Part shown: positions 9,760 to 25,238 of the stretch, piece by piece
Numbering within the stretch: position 1 is the stretch's first letter
How the letters are laid out: the number at the start of each line of letters is the position of its first letter
NCBI GenBank assembly: GCA_021737275.1
Contig: JAIPEE010000007.1
Location: 1 to 64,000 of the forward strand
DNA length: 64,000 nt
Origin: Desulfobacterales bacterium
Lineage (GTDB): Bacteria > Desulfobacterota > Desulfobacteria > Desulfobacterales > JAIPEE01
Reading direction: 5' to 3'
Made by a program: the position numbers and the translations under genes
Notes under the pieces: model-generated
The model's database searches: none
Told to the model about the DNA's origin: nothing
What the model saw: only the letters and a program-made list of their open reading frames with translations

Positions 9760-9791
9760 ACCTTTAACACAAAGTAATATTGTTTGATAAA

Positions 9792-11057
9792 ATGAATACT
9801 GAAATAAATCTTCCCAAAATGATTCGAGTCAGACAGCAATTTGAAACACCAGTACTTGAAGATATTTCACAGGAAATTTTTTCTCAAATTGACAGACTCA
9901 AACTGTCTTCAAAAATCAAAAAAAAACAGTCGGTTGCCATTGGCTGCAGTAGTCGTGGTATTGCCAACTATGCGGAAATTGTAAAAGCAACCGTTCAAAA
10001 ACTTCAGGTGCTGGGGTTAAAACCCTTTCTTTTCCCGGCCATGGGAAGCCATGGCTCTGCATCTTCGGAAGGCCAGAAAAAGGTACTGGAGAATTATGGT
10101 ATCTCAGAAAAAAAGATGGGCGTTCCGATTAAATCGTCACTGGATGTCATTCAAATTGGAGAGACCGGTGATAGAATTCCTGTTTATATTGATAAACTTG
10201 CTATGAAAGCAGATCATATTGTTCTTATTAATCGTATCAAAATGCATACTGAATTTGACGCCGATATTGAAAGTGGATTGATGAAAATGATGGCCATCGG
10301 GCTTGGAAAAAAAATCGGCGCCACACGCTATCATCAGGCAATTATGGAGATTGGGTACTATCACACAATCCGGACAATCGCACACTGTGTTCTCGAAACA
10401 GGGAAGATTCTGTTTGGCGTGGGCATTGTAGAAAATGGATTATCTCAAACAGCAAAAATAGGTGTACTTCCACCTGAAACATTGGAAGAGGATGAAAAAG
10501 AGCTGCTTAAAGTAGCAAAAAAACTATTTGCGCGTCTGCCGTTTGAGGATGTGGATGTATTGATTATTGATGAAATGGGAAAAGACATCAGTGGTACAGG
10601 TTTTGATTCTAAAGTGGTGGGCCGAATCCATATGCCGCTTATCGCAAAAGAGCCGGCATCGCCCCGCATCAAACGAATTGTGGTTTGTGATTTAACAGAA
10701 AAGACTGAGGGCAATGCCGATGGTGTGGGGCTTGCAGATTTCGTCACGAAGCGCCTGGTAGATAAAATTGATTTCAATGCCCTCTATGTGAATGCGATTG
10801 CAGGCGCTGAACCGGAACACGCAAAGATCCCATTAACATTGAAGAATGACCGAGATGCCGTTAAAGTCGCCATTGGCAGTATTGGGCTCATTCCTATTGA
10901 AAAATTAAAAATCATACACATTAAAAACACATCTCGCTTATGCGAAGTTGACGTATCCGAAGCATATATAAGCGAATTCTCTGATCGAGCCGATTTAGAA
11001 AAGATCTCGGAATTGAGACCGATAGCATTTGATTCAGATGGGAATTTAACAAGATGA
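9792..11057 (+). CDS. LarA-like protein (nickel-dependent hydroxyacid racemase/epimerase superfamily, DUF2088)
   Basis: The 421-residue protein resembles the lactate racemase LarA superfamily. It has an N-terminal AIGCSSRGI nucleotide-like loop, a PAMGSHGSASSEGQ block where LarA carries a catalytic histidine, and KMHTEFD...ESGLMKMM, where LarA carries the second histidine and the lysine that holds the nickel-pincer cofactor. The ATG at 9792 was chosen; a TTG at 9780 is an alternative, and the ribosome site is weak. LarA relatives invert or epimerise 2-hydroxyacids, which fits the neighbouring kinase and enolase-like enzyme. LarB/LarC/LarE cofactor genes are not in the window. Some members of this broad family have no known activity. 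Confidence 0.72.
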   Translation: MNTEINLPKMIRVRQQFETPVLEDISQEIFSQIDRLKLSSKIKKKQSVAIGCSSRGIANYAEIVKATVQKLQVLGLKPFLFPAMGSHGSASSEGQKKVLENYGISEKKMGVPIKSSLDVIQIGETGDRIPVYIDKLAMKADHIVLINRIKMHTEFDADIESGLMKMMAIGLGKKIGATRYHQAIMEIGYYHTIRTIAHCVLETGKILFGVGIVENGLSQTAKIGVLPPETLEEDEKELLKVAKKLFARLPFEDVDVLIIDEMGKDISGTGFDSKVVGRIHMPLIAKEPASPRIKRIVVCDLTEKTEGNADGVGLADFVTKRLVDKIDFNALYVNAIAGAEPEHAKIPLTLKNDRDAVKVAIGSIGLIPIEKLKIIHIKNTSRLCEVDVSEAYISEFSDRADLEKISELRPIAFDSDGNLTR

Positions 11058-11669: not shown

Positions 11670-13724
11670 TTATTTTATATGATTTGCAATCAGCTCACTG
11701 AAGTCAATGGCTTCCATTTCACCTTCAAATCCGGCGACCTTGATGGCATCTTCAATATTTACCATGCAGAACGGACAGGCAGTGATAATGACATTGGCAC
11801 CGGCATCATGCGCCATTTTTACCCTTAATACGCCCATGCGGACCTCTTCTTCAGGTTCATAAAAGAGCATGAGCCCGCCGCCGCCGCAGCAGAAGGAGCG
11901 GTCTCCGTGTTTGTCCATTTCGACTCTTTTCAGGCCGGGTATTGCATCAATTGCTTCTCGCGGGTTGTCATAAATGCCATTATGGCGTCCGAGATAACAT
12001 GGGTCATGATAAGTGTAGATCTTTTCGCTGTCTTCAACCGGTTTGAGTTGAACTTTGTTATAGGCAATTTCTCTGGAAATTACCTGGCTGATATGTTTAA
12101 CCGGCAAGTCCAGTTTATAATCATTTTTCAATGCATTAAGGGCATGGGGGTCTGCGGTAACAATCTCTTTAACACCCGATTCCACAATGGCATCAATATT
12201 TTGAGTTTTGAGATCCTGATACAAAAACTCTTCACCAAAGCGCAACACTTCATTACCGCTGTCTTTTTCCTGTTTGCCGAGAATACCAAAGTCAACACCG
12301 GCCGCCTTCAGGATTTTGGCGGTGCTCCGGGCAATGCTGTTCATCCGTTCATCATAAGATGAGATACTGTCTACAAAGTAAAGCGTTTCAGCTTCAACGC
12401 CTTTTTCCAGAACCTTTACTTCGCATTCAGCCTTGAACGCTTCATCCTTAATTGCCCAGTCTGCACGCTTCTTTTCCATCTTGCCCCAGGGATTACCTCT
12501 TTTTTCAAGGGCCTTAAGTGGTTTCTGAAGCGTCTGGGGAACCTCGCCTTCATCTACCAACCCTCTTCTGAGGTCGACTATTTTATCTATATATTCAATG
12601 CCAAGAGGACACTCCTGTTCACAGGCGCCGCAGGTGGTACATGACCAGATCTCATCATTTTCGTAGATGGTGCCCATAACCGGCTGATCGGGATTAGATT
12701 CACCCCTGAGCGGATAATTTTTAAAAATAAAATCACGTCCCTTAATGGAGATAAATCTGGGAGATAATGGCCGGCCTACTGCATTGGCCGGGCACTGGTC
12801 GGAACACCGTCCGCAGTCTGCACAGGTATAAAAATCAAGAAGGTGTTTCCATGTAAAATCTTCCAGTTTCTTTACGCCAAAGGAATCAAGATCATCGAGC
12901 GCTTCATCGGAAATACCGTGTTTGACGGGTTTGATATTGCCCCTGGTGATTCTCATGAAAAAGACATTGAAAATCGATGTAATGACATGAAAGTGCTTAC
13001 CCAGCGGTAAAAAACATAAGAAAAAGAAAAAGGTCAGGTCATGAATAAAGTATGAGAAGATATGCAAACCCTGCAATGTACCGGGAGATGCATTGTGCAG
13101 CATGGCTGCAAAAATCCAGACAAGGGAGAGCGGCGGCAGAAAACCTCCTTCCCCGCCGGCATGTGCGGCTGCTTCAAAAAGACTTTCTGAAAGCATGAGC
13201 GTCATAATCAATGCCAGCACAAAGACAGCTTCAGAAGTATGGTCGTGACCGTATTTTTCAGGGACGGCATATCTGGCCGGTTTAAAAACACCTCTTCTGA
13301 CAGCAGCAACAAGACAGGCAAAAAATACGGCCGTTGCCGCATAATCTTTTGAAAAATTATAAATATCGCCGAGCACGCCACCCAGGCCGGGCAAGACAAA
13401 ACCGTCGGCAAAACCAATAACGACCAGAGATGTGGACCGGATGGATAAAACCAGAAACCCGAAAAAAATAATAATGTGCAATACACCGGCCAGCATGTAT
13501 CGCGGCTGACGGCTCTGGGCCAGCCAGATATTAAAAAGGTTTTTTATTCTTTCCGGGATATTTTCAAAACGGTTATCCGGTGCAGCCTTTAAAAGCGGCG
13601 CGAACCTTTTCCAGATAATATAACCGAACAAGGCAACACCGATAATCGGTATGAGTTGAGAAAATATAATTGTCGGGATGAACCCAAACAGCTTGTAACT
13701 TGCGGGACCTGCTATAGGTGTCAT
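11670..13724 (-). CDS. Membrane-bound FeS oxidoreductase, ETF:quinone oxidoreductase type (DUF224/CCG)
   Basis: The 684-residue protein starts with a multi-helix membrane domain (about residues 15-265, NarI-like). Two ferredoxin-type clusters follow, CADCGRCSDQCP near residue 303 and CTTCGACEQECP near residue 366. A C-terminal cysteine-rich part contains HDPCYLGRHNG, SFCCGGGG and CPFC, like heterodisulfide reductase subunit B/D CCG domains. This architecture is known from sulfate reducers and syntrophs as the membrane partner that passes electrons between ETF and the menaquinone pool. Here it lies downstream of acd, etfB and etfA on the same strand, so it should take electrons from the acyl-CoA dehydrogenase through ETF. 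Haem-ligating histidines are likely in the membrane part but were not individually assigned. Confidence 0.85.
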   Translation of the reverse strand: MTPIAGPASYKLFGFIPTIIFSQLIPIIGVALFGYIIWKRFAPLLKAAPDNRFENIPERIKNLFNIWLAQSRQPRYMLAGVLHIIIFFGFLVLSIRSTSLVVIGFADGFVLPGLGGVLGDIYNFSKDYAATAVFFACLVAAVRRGVFKPARYAVPEKYGHDHTSEAVFVLALIMTLMLSESLFEAAAHAGGEGGFLPPLSLVWIFAAMLHNASPGTLQGLHIFSYFIHDLTFFFFLCFLPLGKHFHVITSIFNVFFMRITRGNIKPVKHGISDEALDDLDSFGVKKLEDFTWKHLLDFYTCADCGRCSDQCPANAVGRPLSPRFISIKGRDFIFKNYPLRGESNPDQPVMGTIYENDEIWSCTTCGACEQECPLGIEYIDKIVDLRRGLVDEGEVPQTLQKPLKALEKRGNPWGKMEKKRADWAIKDEAFKAECEVKVLEKGVEAETLYFVDSISSYDERMNSIARSTAKILKAAGVDFGILGKQEKDSGNEVLRFGEEFLYQDLKTQNIDAIVESGVKEIVTADPHALNALKNDYKLDLPVKHISQVISREIAYNKVQLKPVEDSEKIYTYHDPCYLGRHNGIYDNPREAIDAIPGLKRVEMDKHGDRSFCCGGGGLMLFYEPEEEVRMGVLRVKMAHDAGANVIITACPFCMVNIEDAIKVAGFEGEMEAIDFSELIANHIK

Positions 13725-13748
13725 GATATTTCTTCCTTTTAAAAGGGT

Positions 13749-13809
13749 GTCTGAAGTGAGCTAAAGTGAGAGACGCTTTATTAAATAAAACCTTTAGCCC
13801 ACTTCAGAC
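13749..13809. repeat. Imperfect inverted repeat between etfA and the FeS oxidoreductase gene
   Basis: Arms 13749-13766 and 13792-13809 (GTCTGAAGTG... and ...CACTTCAGAC) pair over about 17 of 18 positions. The left arm resembles the sequence at 22269-22291, upstream of the thiolase gene. It may be an intercistronic RNA hairpin that sets relative expression within the operon, or a small dispersed repeat. Confidence 0.5.
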
Positions 13810-13892
13810 GGTGGTACAGCAACTAAAAATTGCCTTTCAGCCCGATTATTGCGTACTCGAGCCGAAAGTATTATTTTCAAACAATTTCATAC

Positions 13893-14846
13893 TTATTGTA
13901 CTTTTTCAGTCAATTCCGGAATAAACTCCAGAATATCACCAACAATACCGACATCGGCAACCTGGAAAATAGGCGCCTTGGGGTTTTTGTTTATGGCGAT
14001 AATAAATCCGCCCTTGATTCCGCCAAGATGCTGGAATGCACCGCTGATACCCATTGCCAGATAGACTTTAGGTTTAACGGTCTTGCCGGACGTGCCGACC
14101 TGACGGGCCTGTTCCAGCCATTTGGCATCAACAATAGGTCTTGAACATGAAAGTTCTGCGCCCAGGGCTTCAGCCAGCTCTTTGGCCATCTCGATATTAT
14201 CTTCGTCTTCAATACCTCGCCCAACAGAAACAAGAATATCCGCTTTAGTAATATCAACACCGCCGGAATCCGGTGTAACGGTTTCGATATAGCGACGTTT
14301 AACGTCAACATCCGTGTTGACGGTTTTATCAACCACGTTACCACCGGCAGCCGCATTTTCTTTAGGAATAAAAGCACCCGGCCTGATATTGACGATGGCA
14401 CCGGATGAAATATCACAGTTTACATGCGAGTATACTTGCCCGAACAGTTCCTGTCGAACGGTTTTAAGGGTATTGCCATCAACTTCCATTTCAATGACAT
14501 CTGCAACCAGCGGCGAGTCAACAAGAATTGACAGGCCCGGAGACAGGTCCATACCAAATGAGTTATGATGTGTAATGAAAACGGCGTCCGCAGGAAGCAC
14601 CTCTATAAGGGCCTTTCTGATGATTTCAGCATTCGGATATGCAAATTTTACATCATCAATTTTCCAGATCTCATTGAAAGATCCTGCAACTTCATTACAA
14701 ACAGCATCAAGGTCAGTCCCTGATCCAACAACAATGCCGGTTACCTGTGCAGTAGCATCAATCTGAGCGGCTGCCGTCAGAAGCTCAAGCGCACACTCAT
14801 CTGCTGCGCCGTTTTTATGCGGGATATATGCAAATAATTGTGTCAT
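13893..14846 (-). CDS. etfA: Electron transfer flavoprotein alpha subunit
   Basis: The 317-residue protein has the ETF alpha layout. The C-terminal FAD-binding domain includes VGRGIEDEDNIEMAKELAEALGAE, CSRPIVDAKWL, GISGAFQHLGG and INKNPKAPIFQVADVGIVGD. With the beta subunit it forms a soluble FAD heterodimer that accepts electrons from acyl-CoA dehydrogenase. Its ATG overlaps the etfB stop by one base (TGATGA context), so the two subunits are translationally coupled. The only odd point is the long gap (168 bases with a hairpin) before the membrane oxidoreductase gene. Confidence 0.95.
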   Translation of the reverse strand: MTQLFAYIPHKNGAADECALELLTAAAQIDATAQVTGIVVGSGTDLDAVCNEVAGSFNEIWKIDDVKFAYPNAEIIRKALIEVLPADAVFITHHNSFGMDLSPGLSILVDSPLVADVIEMEVDGNTLKTVRQELFGQVYSHVNCDISSGAIVNIRPGAFIPKENAAAGGNVVDKTVNTDVDVKRRYIETVTPDSGGVDITKADILVSVGRGIEDEDNIEMAKELAEALGAELSCSRPIVDAKWLEQARQVGTSGKTVKPKVYLAMGISGAFQHLGGIKGGFIIAINKNPKAPIFQVADVGIVGDILEFIPELTEKVQ

Positions 14847-15631
14847 CAGCTCATCCCTCCTTTACTCTTAAGCAGTTCAATTACTTTATTTACTTTTTCT
14901 TCCATACTGCCCTCGATCATTTCCGCGCCCTCACCGAGATCAGGAACAAAGTAATCAACTCTTTTTACCTTTGATGCATCGATTCCAATTTCATCAGCAG
15001 AAAGGCCCAGGTCAGATGCTCTGTATTCGGGAATCTCAACACTACTTACTTTTCTGATACCACGAAGGCTGACATAGCGCGGTTCATTAATACCGGTTTG
15101 AATAGACAAAACACAGGGAAGGTCAATTTCACTGACTTCCTGGTCGCCGCCTTCAATTTCCCGGCCGATTTTAAGTTTGCCGTCATCAATAACTTCGATC
15201 ATATTAACTAATGACGCATAAGGTCTGTCCAGCATTGCTGCCAGCATACCGCCAACCTGGGCTTCTCCGCCATCGGCCTGGGCACCGGTTAAAATAAGGT
15301 CATAGGAGCCTTTTTCGGAAACCGCTTTTAAAACTGATGCAATGCCTTTTCCATAAGCGGCATCAGTTACCAGGATACCCTGCTGTGACCCCATGGCCAT
15401 TTCACGGCGAAGAACTTCATCCGCCTTTTCCTCATCACTCTCTACGGTGACGACCGTTACAGATCCACCTTTATCTTCAGTGATGCTGATGGCCTCTTCG
15501 ACCGCATAGTTATCCCATTCATTTATTGAATAGACCAGATCATCACGAACGATATCTGTTCCATCGCTTTTTATCTCTATCTCGTTTTCTTCAAGGTCGG
15601 GAACCCCTTTGATACAAACAAGAATTTCCAT
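14846..15631 (-). CDS. etfB: Electron transfer flavoprotein beta subunit
   Basis: The 261-residue protein opens with MEILVCIKGVPD, characteristic of ETF beta, and contains the LILTGAQADGGEAQVGGMLA block near residue 112 and the central SIQTGINEPRYVSLRGI segment. It is the AMP-binding partner of EtfA. The gene follows acd by 17 bases with AGGAGGTTCTC upstream of the ATG, so acd-etfB-etfA form one operon. The standard ETF role from acyl-CoA dehydrogenase to the membrane is the simplest reading. No sign of an electron-bifurcating partner (for example a ferredoxin gene) is seen next to it. Confidence 0.95.
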   Translation of the reverse strand: MEILVCIKGVPDLEENEIEIKSDGTDIVRDDLVYSINEWDNYAVEEAISITEDKGGSVTVVTVESDEEKADEVLRREMAMGSQQGILVTDAAYGKGIASVLKAVSEKGSYDLILTGAQADGGEAQVGGMLAAMLDRPYASLVNMIEVIDDGKLKIGREIEGGDQEVSEIDLPCVLSIQTGINEPRYVSLRGIRKVSSVEIPEYRASDLGLSADEIGIDASKVKRVDYFVPDLGEGAEMIEGSMEEKVNKVIELLKSKGGMS

Positions 15632-15648
15632 GAGAACCTCCTATTTCC

Positions 15649-16812
15649 TTATCTGTTCGCTTTTCTGATACCCAGCTGGTCTGTACCAATAATCATTTTA
15701 CAGATATTGTTGGAACCCTCTACAATTACATATGTCGGCACATCTCTGTAGTATCTGGCAATGTTATACTCGCTAGAATAACCGTAGGCACCCATGATTT
15801 TTAGCGCATATTCAGCACACTTCATGGCTGCATCGCCTGCCACAAGCTTGGCCTGTGCCACTTCAAGGTTGTTACCCAGCATACCATTGTCTTTCTGCCA
15901 TCCGGCTCTGTAAACCATCAGGCGGGCAGATTCTACCATGACGGACATCTGGGCAATCAAATCCTGGTTCATCTGGAATGTTCCAACGGGTTTGCCAAAC
16001 TGCTTTCTTTCATTACAGTACTTGATGGCCATTTCGAGACAGGCCTGTGCACAGCCGACACCGCCTGCTGCTGCAGAAAGGCGTGTATTTCCGAGGGAAG
16101 TAAAAACAATTCTAGCGCCGTCACCCGGTTTTCCGAGAATATTTTCTTTTGGAATTTTACAGTTGTCCAGGAAAACTTCACCGGTTGGAGAAGAAAATGA
16201 TCCCATTTTTGAAAGATCTGTTGTTTTGACGCCTTCAAAGTTTTTGGGTTCAAGAACAAATGCGGACAGGCCCTTGCTGCCCAGAGATTTATCGGTGTAT
16301 GCGTAAAGCACCAATACATCCGCTGCTGCTGCATTGGAGATCCATGTTTTATTACCATTGATCAGCCAGTGGTCGCCCTTGTCTTCAGCTGTTGTTTCGA
16401 TAGCCATTACATCGGAGCCGGCACCGGGTTCGGTGATTGCAAATCCACCGACATATTCACCGCCGCAGAGTTTCGGCACATACTTTTTCTTAATATCTTC
16501 AGAACCATAAAGATAGATAGGGTAAGCGCATCCAACGCCCTGCATATTGATCTGAACACGTAAAGAACTTGAAACACGGGCAATTTCTTCTGTGATAATA
16601 CACATAGCCAGAAAGCCCATATCTTCTCCGCCATACTCTTCAGGAATGGTTGCACCATAAAAACCCAGTTCGCCCATAGGTTTTAACACCTCTTCTACCG
16701 GCAGATAGTGATTTTCATCCCATTCTGAAGCATTGGGCTCAATTTTTTTAGTACAGAAATTACGAACCTCTTTTCTCAGCATTTCCAGTTCTTTTGAAAG
16801 TTTAAAATCCAT
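15649..16812 (-). CDS. Acyl-CoA dehydrogenase
   Basis: The 387-residue protein has the normal length and three-part fold of the family. It includes AITEPGAGSDV near residue 128 (FAD/substrate binding), the QLIA-type middle helices, RKQFGKPVGTFQMNQ, and the catalytic-base glutamate in VEGSNNICKMIIG near the C terminus. It oxidises a CoA thioester to the enoyl-CoA and reduces ETF. It is the first gene of the acd-etfB-etfA operon. Chain length cannot be fixed from sequence; short-chain or branched/substituted acyl-CoA are all possible. Its position between ETF and a trimethylamine methyltransferase raises the possibility that the substrate is an amine-bearing acyl-CoA. Confidence 0.92.
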   Translation of the reverse strand: MDFKLSKELEMLRKEVRNFCTKKIEPNASEWDENHYLPVEEVLKPMGELGFYGATIPEEYGGEDMGFLAMCIITEEIARVSSSLRVQINMQGVGCAYPIYLYGSEDIKKKYVPKLCGGEYVGGFAITEPGAGSDVMAIETTAEDKGDHWLINGNKTWISNAAAADVLVLYAYTDKSLGSKGLSAFVLEPKNFEGVKTTDLSKMGSFSSPTGEVFLDNCKIPKENILGKPGDGARIVFTSLGNTRLSAAAGGVGCAQACLEMAIKYCNERKQFGKPVGTFQMNQDLIAQMSVMVESARLMVYRAGWQKDNGMLGNNLEVAQAKLVAGDAAMKCAEYALKIMGAYGYSSEYNIARYYRDVPTYVIVEGSNNICKMIIGTDQLGIRKANR

Positions 16813-16960
16813 TTTTTCTCCTCCTGTTAATTGGTGATATTGTATTATATGTTTTTTGAGTCATTTTTATTTGGGCTCAATTGATATCAAATTATAAGTT
16901 TTTATCTGATAATAGCGTTAACTTTATTTTTTAGATCTTTTAACTGATTCCTGAATCTGA

Positions 16961-17009
16961 ATTATCCGGGGCATGATACGGTACCTGCCGTATTTTTGCC
17001 CCGGATAAT
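16961..17009 (-). terminator. Strong hairpin after mttB
   Basis: A perfect 13-bp stem, ATTATCCGGGGCA (16961-16973) with its complement at 16997-17009, encloses a second short hairpin (ATACGG/CCGTAT). It begins 18 bases past the mttB stop on the minus strand and should insulate mttB from the acd operon. The T-tract after it is poor. Confidence 0.65.
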
Positions 17010-17026
17010 TAATCCCAACATAATTC

Positions 17027-18499
17027 TTACTTTGTAATGCCCATTTCCGATTCTGTTTCCTCGATAATGGCGCGCATTTGAGCTTTTATATCATCAGAAA
17101 TTGGTTCGGGTTTATGGTTTTCTATAATATCACGGGCCTTTTTAAGGGCTCTATCCTGAAGACTTGTTCTGCCTGCCGTTTCCCAGTCTTCAAACATGTT
17201 GCGGTCTATCAGTTTCGGCGCAGACTGAGATCTCATATATTTAAATGATGATTCATGGCTGAGAAAGTTTCCGGCGATACCTATCTCCTGGATCGCTTCA
17301 ACAGCCAGTGTTTCATCGTTTACAGGAATACCCTGTACGCTGAACTTGATCATCTCTGCAAACTCATTATCCATGACCAGCTGGCCATAGTCTATCGTCA
17401 TACCCATTTCGATCATACCCAGGCCGTAAATGAGGTTGGCACCTGCCAACGCCGGTAATAAGCCTGTAAGGGTTTTTTCATGACCGATCTGAGCATCGGA
17501 TGTTTTGCTGTCGCCCTATCCACCGGCGACCCAGCTTGGCAAGAGATAGTAGTTTGCCAGACGGGCTACAGCGGCATTAATCATGCCGCATTCGGGACAG
17601 CCGACTGCGGCTGCAGCCATACGCATATCCATTGCTGTGGTGGAGCTGCCGTATATAACCTTAGCACCCTTGCGGGTCAGCTGGCTCAACACGATGCCGC
17701 CCAGTACTTCTGCATTATGGTCAACCAGTGTGCCGGCCAGTGTAATGGGTGAAGATCCACCGGCCATTGCCATTGAAAGAATGTTTACGGCAAGCCCTGC
17801 CTTTGCTCCTTCCATGATAATTTCACAGGTTTCCTTAACCAGTTGCAGCGGGCTGACCGGACATGTAATCAGGGAAATAATTGGATTTTCTCTCAGTTTA
17901 TCTTTTCCGCCAACAACAGTTGCAACCATTTCAACCAGTTTTTTGGTAATATAGCCGTTTCCGGATCCCATAAAACCATGTTTGGTCGTGTTGGGCAGCC
18001 ATGCTTCGGCATTATGAAGCTGTACCGTGTCCATGGGAACATCACTTGCGCCAACAGCTCGCTCATAAACATCGATATTGGGAAGTGCATCCACAATCAA
18101 TGCAGAGGTTGCAACATCTGCTTTGGTGGTTTCGCGACGTTCCCCCGTATAAGGATCTATAATAAAAACACCTTCGCCAAAGTTGGTAAAGCCTACACGG
18201 TTACCTTCCATGACATAATTGTTTTTTGGGTTTCGGCCATGCAGAATAAGCTTTGACGGTGCTGATCGAATGGCATCTTCTACCAGCCAGGGCGGAATCT
18301 TTACGGTTTTAGTTTTCTTGTCTACAATAGCGCCGCCGCCATCGAAGGCTTCCAGGGCCTCATCCGTCTCTACAAAAAGTCCAACCTTCTCCAGAATTTC
18401 GAGAGTGGCCAGATGGATTTCATCGAGTTCGTCGTCGGTAAAAACATTCAGGCTGAAACCGCCGCCCATTATTTTACCGGCATGTAAATTGCGTCTCAT
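17027..18499 (-). CDS. mttB: Trimethylamine:corrinoid methyltransferase MttB, pyrrolysine-containing
   Basis: The reading frame is 490 codons when the in-frame TAG at codon 328 is read as pyrrolysine. The first part gives 327 residues and the continuation 162 residues, both in the same frame. The join reads LPSWVAGG-Pyl-GDSKTSDAQ, the site where MttB enzymes carry pyrrolysine; the total length matches the roughly 495-residue archaeal enzyme. The start (AAAGGAGG, ATG at 18499) and the opening GGGFSLNVFTDDELDEIH are typical. MttB transfers a methyl group from trimethylamine to a cognate corrinoid protein. The corrinoid protein gene is not here. The gene follows an IclR gene by 52 bases on the same strand, and a TGTTTCA half-site lies in that gap. 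A quaternary amine rather than free trimethylamine as substrate is possible but less favoured, given the Pyl residue. Confidence 0.93.
17516..17518 (-). other. In-frame amber codon read as pyrrolysine (mttB codon 328)
   Basis: The plus strand reads CTA, so the minus strand has TAG. The codon lies inside a conserved domain with family sequence continuing in the same frame on both sides, and the gene ends properly in TAA 162 codons later. Confidence 0.92.
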
Positions 18500-18551
18500 T
18501 GCTGTACCTCCTTTAAATTAAATCTTTTGAAACATATATATAAGGGGATTA

Positions 18552-19325
18552 TTACCCCATGTATCCCATTGTTTTCGAGCAAGAGTGTGCCGCATGACAG
18601 AGCTCTTTCAAACAAAATTTTTGATGATCCGGATCCTGAAACCTGATTTCGGGTATCGCCAGGCTCATGGATGCCAGAAGAACTCCTTTGTGATCCAGAA
18701 TCGGGGCGCTGATGGAGCCGAGTCCGGATGTTCTTTCACCCAGGCTTATTGCATAACCCTGTTCCCTGATATTGGCGAGTTCTGTTCTGAGCCGGGTTAT
18801 GCTTGAAATAGTGCTTTCAGTTACCGGAGACAGTTTTTTGATACTCAGGTAGCTTTCAATAAATTCATCAGTTGAAAATGCCAGCAGGCATTTTGATGAG
18901 GCACCGGCATACAGCGGTGACCGGTTTCCGATCGGCATGCTGGCTCTCAGGTTTTGAGGTGATTCAATGTTTTCAACACACACTCGATCCATATCTTCAA
19001 TGACATTAAGATGAACGGTTTCCTGTGTTTGGGACAGAATTTGTTTCATAAACGGCAGGGCTGCTTTGGTAACCGGATATGTGCTCTGAAGTGTGTTGAG
19101 AAATCGGAAAAATATATTTCCGAGACGGTACTGACGTGAGAGCGGGTCCTGGTCCACAAACCGGTAGGATTTTAGAGTCTGAAGAATACGCTGAACTGTG
19201 GCCGGGTTTAGATCCAGATGGGAAGCCAGTTCCCGGACCCCCCAGGTTCGAGGTTCTTCCTGGAATGCCAGTAGTGTCACAAGGGCTTTTTGGATAGAGT
19301 TTAATTTAGGTTTACTTTGTTTCAT
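18552..19325 (-). CDS. IclR family transcriptional regulator, copy A
   Basis: The 257-residue protein has a winged helix-turn-helix in the first 75 residues (LNPATVQRILQTLKSYRF) and an IclR effector domain with RASMPIGNRSPLYAGASSKCLLAF and AISLGERTSGLGSISAPI. It is very similar over its whole length to the second regulator at 19667-20443, so the two are tandem duplicates. It is immediately upstream of mttB on the same strand, so it may be cotranscribed with it and control it. A candidate operator sits about 210 bases upstream, at 19534. The effector is probably a methylated amine or a CoA ester from the cluster; this is inference. Confidence 0.92.
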   Translation of the reverse strand: MKQSKPKLNSIQKALVTLLAFQEEPRTWGVRELASHLDLNPATVQRILQTLKSYRFVDQDPLSRQYRLGNIFFRFLNTLQSTYPVTKAALPFMKQILSQTQETVHLNVIEDMDRVCVENIESPQNLRASMPIGNRSPLYAGASSKCLLAFSTDEFIESYLSIKKLSPVTESTISSITRLRTELANIREQGYAISLGERTSGLGSISAPILDHKGVLLASMSLAIPEIRFQDPDHQKFCLKELCHAAHSCSKTMGYMG

Positions 19326-19666: not shown

Positions 19667-20443
19667 TCAAGTATGATGATAGCCCCTCGTTTCAGAACAA
19701 CTCCGGGTCGCCTTAATCAGTTCTTGACGGCAGAAGTTGAGATGATCAGAATTATTAAATCTGATTTCAGGAATTGCAAGGCTGATTGATGCCAGTAAAA
19801 CACCTTTATGATCCAGTATCGGTGCGCTGAGAGATCCGAGCCCTGGCGTACGTTCACCCATACTTATGGCAAACCCCTGCACTCTTGTTTCAGCAATTTC
19901 TGTTCTGAGTCGGGTAACATTTGAAATCGTATTTTCAGTAACCGGGGTCAGTTTTTTGAAACTCAGGTAGCTTTCGATGAACTCATCAGACGAAAAGGCC
20001 AGCAGGCATTTGGATGATGCGCCTGCATAAAGTGGTGAACGGCTTCCGATCGGCATGCTTGCCCTGAGATTTTGAGGTGATTCAATGTTTTCAACACAGA
20101 CACGATCCATATCCTCTATAACATTAAGATGAACCGTTTCCTGTGTTTTTGACTGAAGCTCTTTCATAAAAGGCAATGCAGCCTTTGAAACCGGGTATGT
20201 GCTTTGCAGCGTATTGAGAAACCGGTAAAAAATGTTTCCCAGGCGATACTGGCGAGTCTTGGGATCCTGATCAATAAACCGGAAAGATTTCAATGTCTGG
20301 AGAATGCGCTGAACCGTAGCAGGGTTCAGGTCAAGATGGGTGCCCAGCTCTCTGACACCCCAGGTTTGCTGATTTTCCTGAAAAGCCAGAAGTGTTACCA
20401 ATGCCTTTTCGATAGAGTTTAGTTTATCTTTATTTTGTTCCAT
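19667..20443 (-). CDS. IclR family transcriptional regulator, copy B
   Basis: The 258-residue protein is a close paralogue of the IclR protein at 18552-19325; long blocks such as HLDLNPATVQRILQTLKS and QETVHLNVIEDMDRVCVEN are shared exactly. It is divergent from mtbB across a 372-base gap that contains two copies of a 19-bp palindrome, one near its own start. This arrangement suggests that copy B autoregulates and controls mtbB, while copy A serves mttB. Cross-regulation is likely, because the recognition helices are nearly the same. Confidence 0.92.
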   Translation of the reverse strand: MEQNKDKLNSIEKALVTLLAFQENQQTWGVRELGTHLDLNPATVQRILQTLKSFRFIDQDPKTRQYRLGNIFYRFLNTLQSTYPVSKAALPFMKELQSKTQETVHLNVIEDMDRVCVENIESPQNLRASMPIGSRSPLYAGASSKCLLAFSSDEFIESYLSFKKLTPVTENTISNVTRLRTEIAETRVQGFAISMGERTPGLGSLSAPILDHKGVLLASISLAIPEIRFNNSDHLNFCRQELIKATRSCSETRGYHHT

Positions 20444-20815: not shown

Positions 20816-22192
20816 ATGAGCAAAATTATCACTCGCATGGGTGACGGTTCAGCTGTTGAGATGACAGATAGTGAACTGATGGAGGATCTGGTTAAGGGTG
20901 GGGAAGATGCCGCTGAACGCGGCCGGATACCGATGTTGAACAAGGAAGAACTTCAGTACCTGTTTGATGTGTTCAAATCGCCCTACAAATTTGTTTCAGT
21001 AGAGCCCGGTAATGAAGTTATCATGACTTATGATGGTGCACCCATCAAGATGACACGCGCAGATGTTCATATGAGCCGCATTCAGGCGCTTCAGATATAT
21101 GAAAAAATGTTTGGTGCTGATACGCTTGAGCTGGGTCATATTGATTACAGTTACAAACAGATCAAGCCTATTGTCGGTTTTGAGCAACCGCTGGTGGAGC
21201 AGACATTAATGGTTACGACCGCACCTCTTATTTATGGTGCGATGCCAAACCTGGGTCTTTACAGCCAACCGGACGGACCTTTTCCGAATCCTTCGGAACT
21301 GATGCCCATGGGCAAAATAAAAGAGGCCCAGGAATCCTATGAGGCAGCTGTTGAAGACGCCGTCAAGGATATTGTCTTTGTTGGTGGAGAGATGTACGAA
21401 TCCGGCGTTGACGGTCTTATTCTGGATACGGTTGGTGCCGCCGGTGATGCAGACGTAATGGCAAGCGCCATTGCTACCCGGATGCTGAAAGATAAATACC
21501 CGGATATCTGTATTGAATTCGGTATGGCCGGAGAGTTCACACTGGGTATGCATGGCGAAATGTCATATGAAGGCATCCGCCTGGCGGGTCAGTATGCGCA
21601 TGAACAGGTCAAGGTTGCGGAGCTGGCCGGTGCGTCTCTGTTTGGTTCAGTTGTAAATACCAACACCAGCATGTCAACACCTTGGAATCTGGCAAGGGCC
21701 ATCGTTTTTACAAAAGCCTGTACAGACGTAGCCAATATTCCGGTTCATGCGAACATGGGCATGGGTGTTGGTGCATTAACGGTTAATGACTTTGTTCCTG
21801 TAGATGTTATTTCCCGTTGTTCAAAAGCCATGGTTGAGTTGTGTAAACTTGATGGTTTGTAGGTTGGCGTTGGCGATCCTATGGGAATGGCAATTTCACA
21901 TGCAATGGCTTCAGGTATGGGCGGTATGAGAGCAGCCGGAGATCTGGTTGCCCGGGTACAAATGTCCAAAGGCATGAAAATTAATGAAGCAAAAGCATAC
22001 GTTGCTGATAAAATTGGAGTTGCTGTTTCAGAACTGACAGACCCGATTATCATGAGTGAGGTACGTGAAGACCTGAAAATAGGCACGCTGCATCCTGTTG
22101 GCAGTAGAAGTGTCAAGTTCATGGAAGCAAAAAAGAATATGGCAAAAGTGCTGGATCTTGAAATCAACTGTGTTAACAAGCTGATGTCATAA
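20816..22192 (+). CDS. mtbB: Dimethylamine:corrinoid methyltransferase MtbB, pyrrolysine-containing
   Basis: Reading TAG at codon 349 as pyrrolysine gives a 458-residue protein ending in TAA at 22192. The junction KLDGL-Pyl-VGVGDPMGMA matches the pyrrolysine site of archaeal MtbB (about residue 356 of about 467). The N-terminal MSKIITRMGDGS and the long middle domain with LDTVGAAGDADVMASAIA and GASLFGSVVNTNTSMSTPWNLARA are also MtbB-like. GGAAGGAGAG precedes the ATG. The enzyme demethylates dimethylamine onto a corrinoid protein, which then feeds a methyl-transfer pathway. Downstream on the same strand are thiolase, 3-hydroxyacyl-CoA dehydrogenase and enoyl-CoA hydratase, separated by two hairpins. 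No mtbC or monomethylamine methyltransferase gene is present. Confidence 0.93.
21860..21862 (+). other. In-frame amber codon read as pyrrolysine (mtbB codon 349)
   Basis: TAG interrupts an otherwise continuous MtbB frame, with 109 further sense codons in the same frame before TAA. The position coincides with the pyrrolysine site known for this family. Confidence 0.93.
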
Positions 22193-22388: not shown

Positions 22389-23567
22389 ATGAAAGAAATA
22401 GTAATATTAGGATCAGGCCGTTCAGCAGGTGGAAAATATGGTGGTGGTTTATCAACACTGACTTCTCCGGAAATCGGCGCAACCGTTGTCCGCGAAACCA
22501 TTAAAAGGTCCGGTATAGAAGCAGATGTTATTGATCAGACTGTTTTTGCCACAGCATGGCAGGCCGGTACAGGCCCGAACCCGGCACGTTTGATTTCCGT
22601 TAATGCAGGAATTCCGGTTGATGCACCGGCTGTTTCGGTCAATGTTCGTTGCGGTTCCAGTATCCAGGCCATCATTTTTGGTTCACAGGCTATAAAGGCC
22701 GGTGATGTGGAAACAGTGATGGTTGGCGGAGCTGAAAGTGCCAGCCAGGTACCTTATTCCATGCCAAATGCCCGCTGGGGTTATCGCATGGGTGATGGCA
22801 AGCTTGAAGACCTCCTGCACAAAGATGGTTTTCGTTGCCCCCTGGGCGGCGGTTTAATGGGTGAAATTACCGATCCGTTGGCCGAAGAGCTGGGGATTAC
22901 CCGCGAAGAACAGGATGCCTTTGCTGCAGACAGTCATAACAAAACTGAAGCGGCTGTTAAAGCCGGTTTATTCGAAGAAGAGATTGTACCTATTGAAGTA
23001 CCGGGCAGAAAAGGTCCGACTATTTTTAAAGATGAAGAGATTTTCCGTGCAGGTATGACTGCCGAGTCTTTAGTGAAACTCAAACCGGTTTTTAGAAAAG
23101 AAGGTACCATTACAGCAGCAAATGCTTGTGCCCTTTGTGATGCTGCCGCCGCCCAGACCATTATGGACAGAGAAAAAGCCAAAACAATGAATTTGAATCC
23201 GATGGCACTGATTCGCGGATATTCATTTGTCGGTTATGATCCGAAGAGATTCGGTATGTCACCGGTTAAGGCTATCCCGGCAGCTTTGAAGCACGCGGGT
23301 CTGTCTCTTGAAGACATGGATCTTATTGAGCTCAACGAAGCCTTTGCAGCCCAATATATTTCCTGTGAGAGAGAACTGAAACTGGACCGCAGCAAGGTGA
23401 ATGTAAATGGCGGCGCTATTGCACTGGGACATCCGGTTGCAGCGACAGGATCAAAAATTCTTACAACCCTGCTATATGCCTTAAAGAACCGGGACAAACA
23501 GTTTGGTCTGGTCAGTCTTTGTGTTGGCGGTGGAAACGGCGTAGCTTTGGTTGTTGAACGCTTGTAA
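22389..23567 (+). CDS. Thiolase (acetyl-CoA C-acetyltransferase family)
   Basis: The 392-residue protein has the thiolase catalytic set: nucleophile C88 in NVRCGSS, the LNEAFAAQ block, the histidine in NGGAIALGHPVAATG and the second cysteine in SLCVGGGNGVALV. AGGAGG precedes the ATG. It cleaves a 3-oxoacyl-CoA with CoA or condenses two acetyl-CoA. In this catabolic context with 3-hydroxyacyl-CoA dehydrogenase and enoyl-CoA hydratase, cleavage to acetyl-CoA is expected. The substrate chain length is not evident. Confidence 0.93.
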   Translation: MKEIVILGSGRSAGGKYGGGLSTLTSPEIGATVVRETIKRSGIEADVIDQTVFATAWQAGTGPNPARLISVNAGIPVDAPAVSVNVRCGSSIQAIIFGSQAIKAGDVETVMVGGAESASQVPYSMPNARWGYRMGDGKLEDLLHKDGFRCPLGGGLMGEITDPLAEELGITREEQDAFAADSHNKTEAAVKAGLFEEEIVPIEVPGRKGPTIFKDEEIFRAGMTAESLVKLKPVFRKEGTITAANACALCDAAAAQTIMDREKAKTMNLNPMALIRGYSFVGYDPKRFGMSPVKAIPAALKHAGLSLEDMDLIELNEAFAAQYISCERELKLDRSKVNVNGGAIALGHPVAATGSKILTTLLYALKNRDKQFGLVSLCVGGGNGVALVVERL

Positions 23568-23601
23568 TTTTTTAAAAATATATATATCAGGAGGATCCAA
23601 A

Positions 23602-24459
23602 ATGGCTATTAATAAAGTGCTCGTAATCGGTGCAGGTACAATGGGCGCAGGCATTGCCCAACTTTGTGCTCAGCAGGGACTTGAAACAATTCTTACAGAT
23701 ATCAAACAGGAATATTCAGATGGCGCACTGGCCCGTATTGGAAAAGGTCTGGATAAGCGTATTGCCAAAGGTAAAATTACTGAAGAAGATAAAAGTGCGG
23801 TACTTTCAAAAATGACGGCAGCTGAGGGTCTTGGCGTTGCAGCCGACGTTGATATTGTTATCGAAAGTGTTGTCGAAAATCTGGAAATAAAAAGAAGTGT
23901 TTTCGCAGAGCTTGATGCGACGGTTCGAGAAGATGTTATTCTTCTGACCAACACAACATCTCTTTCTATTTCAGCAATGGCTGAAGCAACAACCCGACCG
24001 GAAAAAGTTGTGCAGATGCACTTTTTTAACCCCCCGACAATTATGAAGCTGGTTGAAATTATGCCGGGCAAAAAAACTTCACAGGAAACACTTGATGCAG
24101 CAGCAGCATTTGCCGCTCAATTGGGCAAAGATCCGGTAGTTTGCAAGAATGAAGCGCCTGCCGGTATTGTCAGCCGTGTTCTGGGACAGATGCTCAATGA
24201 AGCCACCTGGTTAGTTGCATCCGGTGTAGCAGATCCGGAAGCGGTGGATAAGGCCATGAAGCTTGGCGCCAATCATCCCATTGGGCCACTGGCTCTGTTA
24301 GATATGATCGGGCTGGATATTCATCGTGCAAAAATGCAGACATTGTATAGAGAGCTGGATGATCCGCGTTACCTGCACCCACCGATTGTAGATGAAATGA
24401 TTGAGGCGGGAAATCTTGGCAGGAAAACAGGAAAAGGTTTTTATGAATACGGAGAATAA
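23602..24459 (+). CDS. 3-hydroxyacyl-CoA dehydrogenase (3-hydroxybutyryl-CoA dehydrogenase type)
   Basis: The 285-residue protein has an N-terminal Rossmann fold with GAGTMGAGIAQ and the catalytic histidine in MHFFNPPTIMKLVEIM near residue 141, then the C-terminal dimerisation domain with NHPIGPLALLDMIGLD. The single-unit length of about 285 matches the 3-hydroxybutyryl-CoA dehydrogenase group rather than a multifunctional FadB. The start at 23602 (CAGGAGGATCCAAA upstream) was preferred to an upstream ATG overlapping the thiolase end. It oxidises the 3-hydroxyacyl-CoA using NAD and sits between thiolase and enoyl-CoA hydratase in one operon. Confidence 0.94.
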   Translation: MAINKVLVIGAGTMGAGIAQLCAQQGLETILTDIKQEYSDGALARIGKGLDKRIAKGKITEEDKSAVLSKMTAAEGLGVAADVDIVIESVVENLEIKRSVFAELDATVREDVILLTNTTSLSISAMAEATTRPEKVVQMHFFNPPTIMKLVEIMPGKKTSQETLDAAAAFAAQLGKDPVVCKNEAPAGIVSRVLGQMLNEATWLVASGVADPEAVDKAMKLGANHPIGPLALLDMIGLDIHRAKMQTLYRELDDPRYLHPPIVDEMIEAGNLGRKTGKGFYEYGE

Positions 24460-24461
24460 TC

Positions 24462-25238
24462 ATGTTTGAAAATATAATATTTGAAACAGACGGACCCATT
24501 GCCAGACTGACCTTTAATCGTCCGGACAAGATGAATGCCGTTAATAATGCTACGGTTGACGAGTTGGATCAGGCCCTGGAAATGGTAGAAAAAAACCAGG
24601 AGCTTCGCGTACTGATAATTACCGGTGCAGGTAAGGCTTTTGTTGCCGGTGCAGATATTGGTGAGCTTGATAAACGAGATACGGTGCAGGGCAGGCTGGA
24701 TACCAAAAGGCGTCAGGCTGTTTATACCCGTATTGAACAGTTGGAAATACCCTCCATCGCAGCGATTAACGGATTTGCCCTGGGCACAGGCCTGGAGATA
24801 GCGCTTGCCTGTACATTTCGTATTGCTTCTGCAAAGGCAAAAGTGGGCCAGCCCGAAGTAAAGCTGGGCATCATTCCGGGAGCCGGCGGTACGCAGCGTC
24901 TTCCCCGTGTTGTAGGTATGAGCCGCGCTATGGAGATGATTCTGACCGGTGATATTTTTAAGGCGGATCAGGCACTTGCAATGGGACTGGTTATCAGGGT
25001 GGCCGAACCGGATGATTTGATGCAGGAAGTAGAAAAACTGGCTAAAACAATTATCCTCAGGCCGAAACTGGCAATTCAGTATGCGAAGGAAGCTATATTA
25101 AAATTTTCTGAAGGGTCTCTTGAAGACGGGCTATCCAGAGAATCTTATCTGCATGCACTTTCATGCGGTACCGAAGATAAAAAGGAAGGTGTAAAGTCCT
25201 TTCTTGAAAAGAGAGACCCGGTATTTAAGGGACGATAA
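24462..25238 (+). CDS. Enoyl-CoA hydratase/isomerase family protein
   Basis: The 258-residue crotonase-fold protein has the oxyanion-hole segment AGADIGELD near residue 64 and both catalytic glutamates, in GTGLEIALAC and GQPEVKLGIIPGAGGTQRL. That pattern indicates a true hydratase rather than a dehalogenase or decarboxylase relative. It begins two bases after the previous stop and is the last gene of the thiolase operon. Together with the acyl-CoA dehydrogenase on the other strand, the genes complete a four-step beta-oxidation spiral. Confidence 0.93.
   Translation: MFENIIFETDGPIARLTFNRPDKMNAVNNATVDELDQALEMVEKNQELRVLIITGAGKAFVAGADIGELDKRDTVQGRLDTKRRQAVYTRIEQLEIPSIAAINGFALGTGLEIALACTFRIASAKAKVGQPEVKLGIIPGAGGTQRLPRVVGMSRAMEMILTGDIFKADQALAMGLVIRVAEPDDLMQEVEKLAKTIILRPKLAIQYAKEAILKFSEGSLEDGLSRESYLHALSCGTEDKKEGVKSFLEKRDPVFKGR

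Follow-up and report, generated by a model that had tools for sequence, protein, structure and literature searches.

A trimethylamine methyltransferase gene with an in-frame amber codon at the pyrrolysine position, in a Desulfobacterales genome unusually rich in such genes

The minus-strand gene mttB (17027..18499), encoding a trimethylamine:corrinoid methyltransferase, carries a TAG codon inside its reading frame, and the question is whether the gene is broken at this codon or reads it as pyrrolysine (Pyl). It lies in a stretch of 64,000 nucleotides (the window; C15:1-64000 of genome G000) that belongs to a Desulfobacterales draft assembly of 4.26 Mb in 104 contigs, estimated to be 96% complete and 4% contaminated. 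Retranslation bears out what a first-pass annotation had described, namely a minus-strand frame with TAG at codon 328, AGG and GDSK at its flanks, 162 further codons and a TAA end. When 18499..17027 is translated with the TAG as a residue, a frame of 490 residues results in which codon 328 (17516..17518, minus strand) is the single TAG, flanked as SWVAGG-Pyl-GDSK and followed by 162 sense codons and TAA. On base composition alone, 162 open codons would arise by chance with a probability of about 1e-4. Pfam MTTB gives one unbroken match to residues 16-487 (315 bits), and TIGR02369, the NCBIfam equivalog of the Pyl-type trimethylamine methyltransferase, matches residues 15-483 over profile positions 1-469 of 469 with 767.2 bits against a curated cut-off of 525 bits.

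A scan of GTDB genome contigs yielded 21 related mttB loci, mostly from Desulfobacterales and 59-76% identical to the window gene over the best segment, and the Pyl-site TAG is kept in all 21. dN is far below dS both 5′ and 3′ of the TAG (against locus L038, dN/dS is 0.15/1.68 on the 5′ side and 0.21/1.91 on the 3′ side), and mttB is under purifying selection on both sides of the codon. Given the open-codon probability, the two profile matches, the retained TAG and the low dN, the frame is not due to chance. A nonsense mutation that leaves a pseudogene, or a truncated product of 327 residues only, would agree with the standard code, which closes the frame at codon 327, and with the many other genes of this genome that are terminated by TAG. 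However, TAG stands at the homologous site of all 21 related loci, the constraint 3′ of the TAG is nearly as strong as that 5′ of it, and the same assembly holds a complete Pyl machinery, described below. We therefore reject the pseudogene on sequence grounds and regard a nonsense mutation as very improbable.

The Shine-Dalgarno sequence upstream of the mttB ATG is AAAGGAGGT, and the Shine-Dalgarno region ahead of this start codon reads AAAGGAGGTACAGCA (18500..18514, minus strand). A strong hairpin (16953..17015, minus strand; −33.6 kcal/mol, z −5.9) is positioned just 3′ of the TAA, not after the TAG, and its proximity suggests that the unit ends beyond the TAA. The hairpin is followed by no T-run and terminator prediction did not call it as a terminator; it may represent either a transcript end or a 3′ stabiliser. 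The Rfam PYLIS_3 (mttB) match at 17419..17518 (minus strand, 71.9 bits) overlaps conserved coding sequence and is therefore taken as a marker of the family rather than as proof of an RNA signal; we do not argue for an obligatory-signal role of the PYLIS element in mttB.

The first-pass annotation had held that mttB is intact only in a genome that decodes UAG, and had named pylS, pylB, pylC, pylD and a pylT with a CUA anticodon as the genes to be sought. All of them are found in the same assembly, on contig C63, which encodes, in one direction, the tRNA-Pyl gene (pylT), a corrinoid protein, pylSc, pylB, pylC, pylD and pylSn, so that this genome carries the complete Pyl machinery on which the proposal depended. 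The tRNA-Pyl has a CUA anticodon and, in the centroid fold, an anticodon stem of 6 bp and a variable loop of 3 nt. The five Pyl proteins all exceed their curated cut-offs: PylSc with 338 bits (cut-off 178), PylB with 482 (348), PylC with 425 (248), PylD with 225 (150) and PylSn with 131 (51). Three of these genes, pylSc, pylB and pylSn (L015 11122, 9976 and 7603, on C63), have TAG as their own stop codon, so their termination would be open to UAG readthrough, which would add 3, 42 and 8 residues, respectively. Contamination by a foreign pyl contig, with the window's organism unable to decode UAG, might be suspected because the assembly is a 104-contig draft, its contamination is estimated at 4%, and the pyl cluster is not on the window's contig. 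Against this, the GC content (0.42-0.44) and tetranucleotide correlation (0.67-0.77) of C63 are within the range of the genome and near those of the window's own contig, about 20 Pyl genes are spread over at least 11 contigs of the genome, and the TAG is retained in every related mttB locus examined; we consider a contaminant C63 highly implausible.

The closest solved structures to the mttB product are those of Methanosarcina MttB (7xcm and 7xcl). The product shares full-length homology with the M. barkeri enzyme (PDB 7xcl/7xcm/7xcn; PMC9842639; 433-436 bits), and its alignment with 7xcl over residues 4-483 places codon 328 opposite Pyl334, in agreement with the earlier assignment of the TAG to the established pyrrolysine position of MttB. 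In the M. barkeri enzyme, Pyl is surrounded by Gly110, Met249, Tyr364 and Gly372; Tyr364 and Gly110, which are reported to be fully conserved in Pyl-MttB, activate Pyl, while the backbone of Thr111 contacts the corrin (PMC9842639). The alignment shows that Gly108, Met243 and Tyr358 of the window protein correspond to Gly110, Met249 and Tyr364, and that these and the Gly372 equivalent are all kept. The Gly110 column holds Ser or Asn in two other Pyl paralogues of the same genome. The window enzyme differs from that of M. barkeri in its bacterial host, in its position in another clade within Pyl-MttB, and in Glu109 at the place of Thr111, a Glu that is found throughout its subclade. MtgB-type members of the MttB superfamily (PDB 2qne and 9yce; 265 bits) share the fold family but lack Pyl; in 2qne the Pyl site is occupied by Leu and the Tyr364 position by His. 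About 23 non-Pyl paralogues of the MttB family are encoded in the window's genome.

Considered together, the pyl cluster, the alignment with Pyl334 and the invariant TAG support the original reading of a gene interrupted only by a Pyl codon. The sequence shows that the frame is open, that it has a Pyl site and the active-site residues, and that the decoding machinery is complete; we infer both the incorporation of Pyl at codon 328 and the trimethylamine substrate. Almost certainly, mttB is an intact Pyl-type gene whose UAG at codon 328 is decoded by tRNA-Pyl(CUA), with Pyl supplied by the C63 cluster, for methyl transfer from trimethylamine. In such a scheme, PylB, PylC and PylD would make pyrrolysine and the split PylSc/PylSn synthetase would charge tRNA-Pyl(CUA). 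By analogy with the solved M. barkeri enzyme, the pyrroline ring of Pyl328 would form an adduct with trimethylamine, aided by Tyr358 and the backbone carbonyl of Gly108, and this adduct would present a methyl group to the Co(I) of a corrinoid protein with release of dimethylamine, which the product of the divergent mtbB could then convert to monomethylamine.

The exchange of Thr111 for Glu109 at one corrin-contacting position leaves the exact substrate uncertain, and it has to be weighed whether this Pyl enzyme naturally acts on some other methylated amine. Glu occupies position 111 in the whole window subclade, while the M. barkeri subclade mostly has Thr, Val or Ile, and ten Pyl-MttB paralogues in one genome probably do not all share one function. 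To our knowledge, however, every Pyl-MttB characterised so far acts on trimethylamine; the trimethylamine equivalog TIGR02369 is exceeded far above its cut-off, and Pyl and the Tyr364, Gly110 and Met249 equivalents are retained. A different amine thus seems unlikely, though less so than either a nonsense mutation or contamination, and the product of mttB is very probably a trimethylamine-degrading enzyme of known kind.

The window holds a second Pyl gene, absent from the first-pass annotation. The gene mtbB (20816..22192, plus strand), encoding a dimethylamine:corrinoid methyltransferase of 458 residues, scores 466.5 bits against the TIGR02368 equivalog (cut-off 369.1) and has an in-frame TAG at codon 349 (21860..21862, plus strand), read as pyrrolysine, that is the first codon of an Rfam PYLIS_2 match (21860-21959). 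It is divergent from mttB, and the two are separated by two genes of IclR-family regulators, one directly upstream of mttB (18552..19325, minus strand) and the other between it and mtbB (19667..20443, minus strand), to both of which we assign a putative regulatory role. In the annotation of the mttB neighbourhood no corrinoid protein gene was found beside mttB; since homologues are encoded in the pyl cluster and at several of the remaining mttB/mtbB loci, the corrinoid partner is probably encoded elsewhere in the genome and would act in trans. On a related chromosome (L079) about 12 kb or less separates the mttB orthologue from pylB and pylSc, and the interval contains a corrinoid protein gene and a Pyl mtbB, an arrangement that supports the methylamine role.

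The mttB/mtbB pair is flanked at 11670-16812 (minus strand) by genes for a glutaryl-CoA dehydrogenase, ETF and an Fe-S/CCG oxidoreductase, and at 22389-25238 (plus strand) by genes for a thiolase, a 3-hydroxyacyl-CoA dehydrogenase and an enoyl-CoA hydratase. A functional link of mttB to these acyl-CoA dehydrogenase, ETF and beta-oxidation neighbours was considered and rejected: the acyl-CoA dehydrogenase downstream of mttB is a glutaryl-CoA dehydrogenase (NF045552, 732 bits versus 470) and the strong hairpin lies between, so that the dehydrogenase is left out of the mttB system and, with the ETF genes, appears to form a separate unit. Further along the window, a gene for a nickel-pincer cofactor-dependent isomerase of group 22 (9780-11057, plus strand; NF052515, 499 bits versus 400) adjoins an enolase gene and a glycerate-kinase-like gene.

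Across the genome, ten mttB (the window's included) and 11 full-length mtbB each have exactly one in-frame TAG; two of the ten mttB lie at the end of a contig and may be strain variants, and partial mttB copies are present on C84 and C86. Within the phylum, mtbB occurs in only six of 395 sampled genomes, again including this one, in a survey that scored only four candidates per genome, and a first look gave 14 mtbB candidates here against at most seven in the other genomes listed. In the stretches examined, TAG ends 61 of 321 long ORFs (20 of the 61 are Pyl genes) and is the ordinary terminator in about 40 of about 300 genes outside mttB/mtbB, while extensions past TAG of at least 60 codons all belong to mttB or mtbB, with one exception. 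UAG therefore has two meanings in this genome, as the Pyl codon of mttB and mtbB and as a terminator elsewhere, including in pylSc, pylB and pylSn, and some termination at codon 328 of mttB is to be expected.

Homologues without TAG are also present among the other two methyltransferase families. In the draft genome G042, a full-length MtbB homologue (L078:2175-3530) reads TCG (Ser) where the other mtbB spanning the Pyl site have TAG; it may be an MtbB without Pyl or reflect an error of assembly. In an MtmB homologue (C8:98601-100619; L074, L037) the Pyl202 position is taken by Tyr. Ahead of it and in frame with it lies a corrinoid protein gene ending in TAG, at which UAG readthrough would give a fusion protein. 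The TAG-free MtmB homologue (C8:99270-100619) was rejected as a novelty because non-Pyl MtmB homologues (MtqB) are already known, one of them being a tetramethylammonium/choline methyltransferase (PMC13044021).

A tree of MttB sequences labelled by the residue at the Pyl site bears on how Pyl-free relatives arose. A tandem pair on C68 (27053-28474 and 28553-29959; L027) has Ala and Val in the Pyl column, and one MttB each in G041 (L101) and G051 (L098) has Ala. These four sequences from three genomes form one clade inside the Pyl-MttB clade (support 98/94 or better), adjoining the Glu-111 subclade of the window mttB. The neighbours of the C68 pair are aconitase-X-like, old-yellow-enzyme-like and amidohydrolase genes. 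An AU test that forced all Pyl sequences together gave p 0.0075 with the long Pyl row L091 and 0.098 without it, for a group named only after the tree was seen. Since the other branch of Pyl sequences includes M. barkeri MttB, a single loss is more parsimonious than several gains; with rejection dependent on L091, the claim that this clade lost Pyl remains moderate, supported by the tree and not proved. Loss after duplication was raised as a possibility, but not evaluated, in a 2026 paper (PMC13044021). It is evenly balanced, in our judgement, whether this lineage, with its very large complement of Pyl methyltransferases, also has MttB paralogues in which Pyl was secondarily lost.

Pyl-MttB of Desulfobacterota, and their truncated annotation at the TAG, have been published for marine Deltaproteobacteria (PMC8318568) and Bilophila (PMC7593587), with the same gene type, a UAG at the conserved site, split PylSn/PylSc, an mttB that is not always adjacent to the pyl genes, and public annotation cut at the TAG. 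The marine genomes are reported to have up to five mttB each, against ten Pyl-mttB and 11 Pyl-mtbB here, and Bilophila has no mtbB. The window mttB is an ordinary member of a known gene type, found in a genome where such genes are unusually numerous, and by itself brings no new principle. Standard annotation would split the gene or label it a pseudogene, thereby hiding the methylamine metabolism. The number of Pyl genes in one genome is unusual, and 21 full Pyl genes together with close Pyl-free paralogues make this a good genome in which to study the catalytic contribution of Pyl and its loss. If the loss is true, the Ala/Val clade would represent a natural case in which the 22nd amino acid of the genetic code was abandoned, and the substrate probably changed with it.
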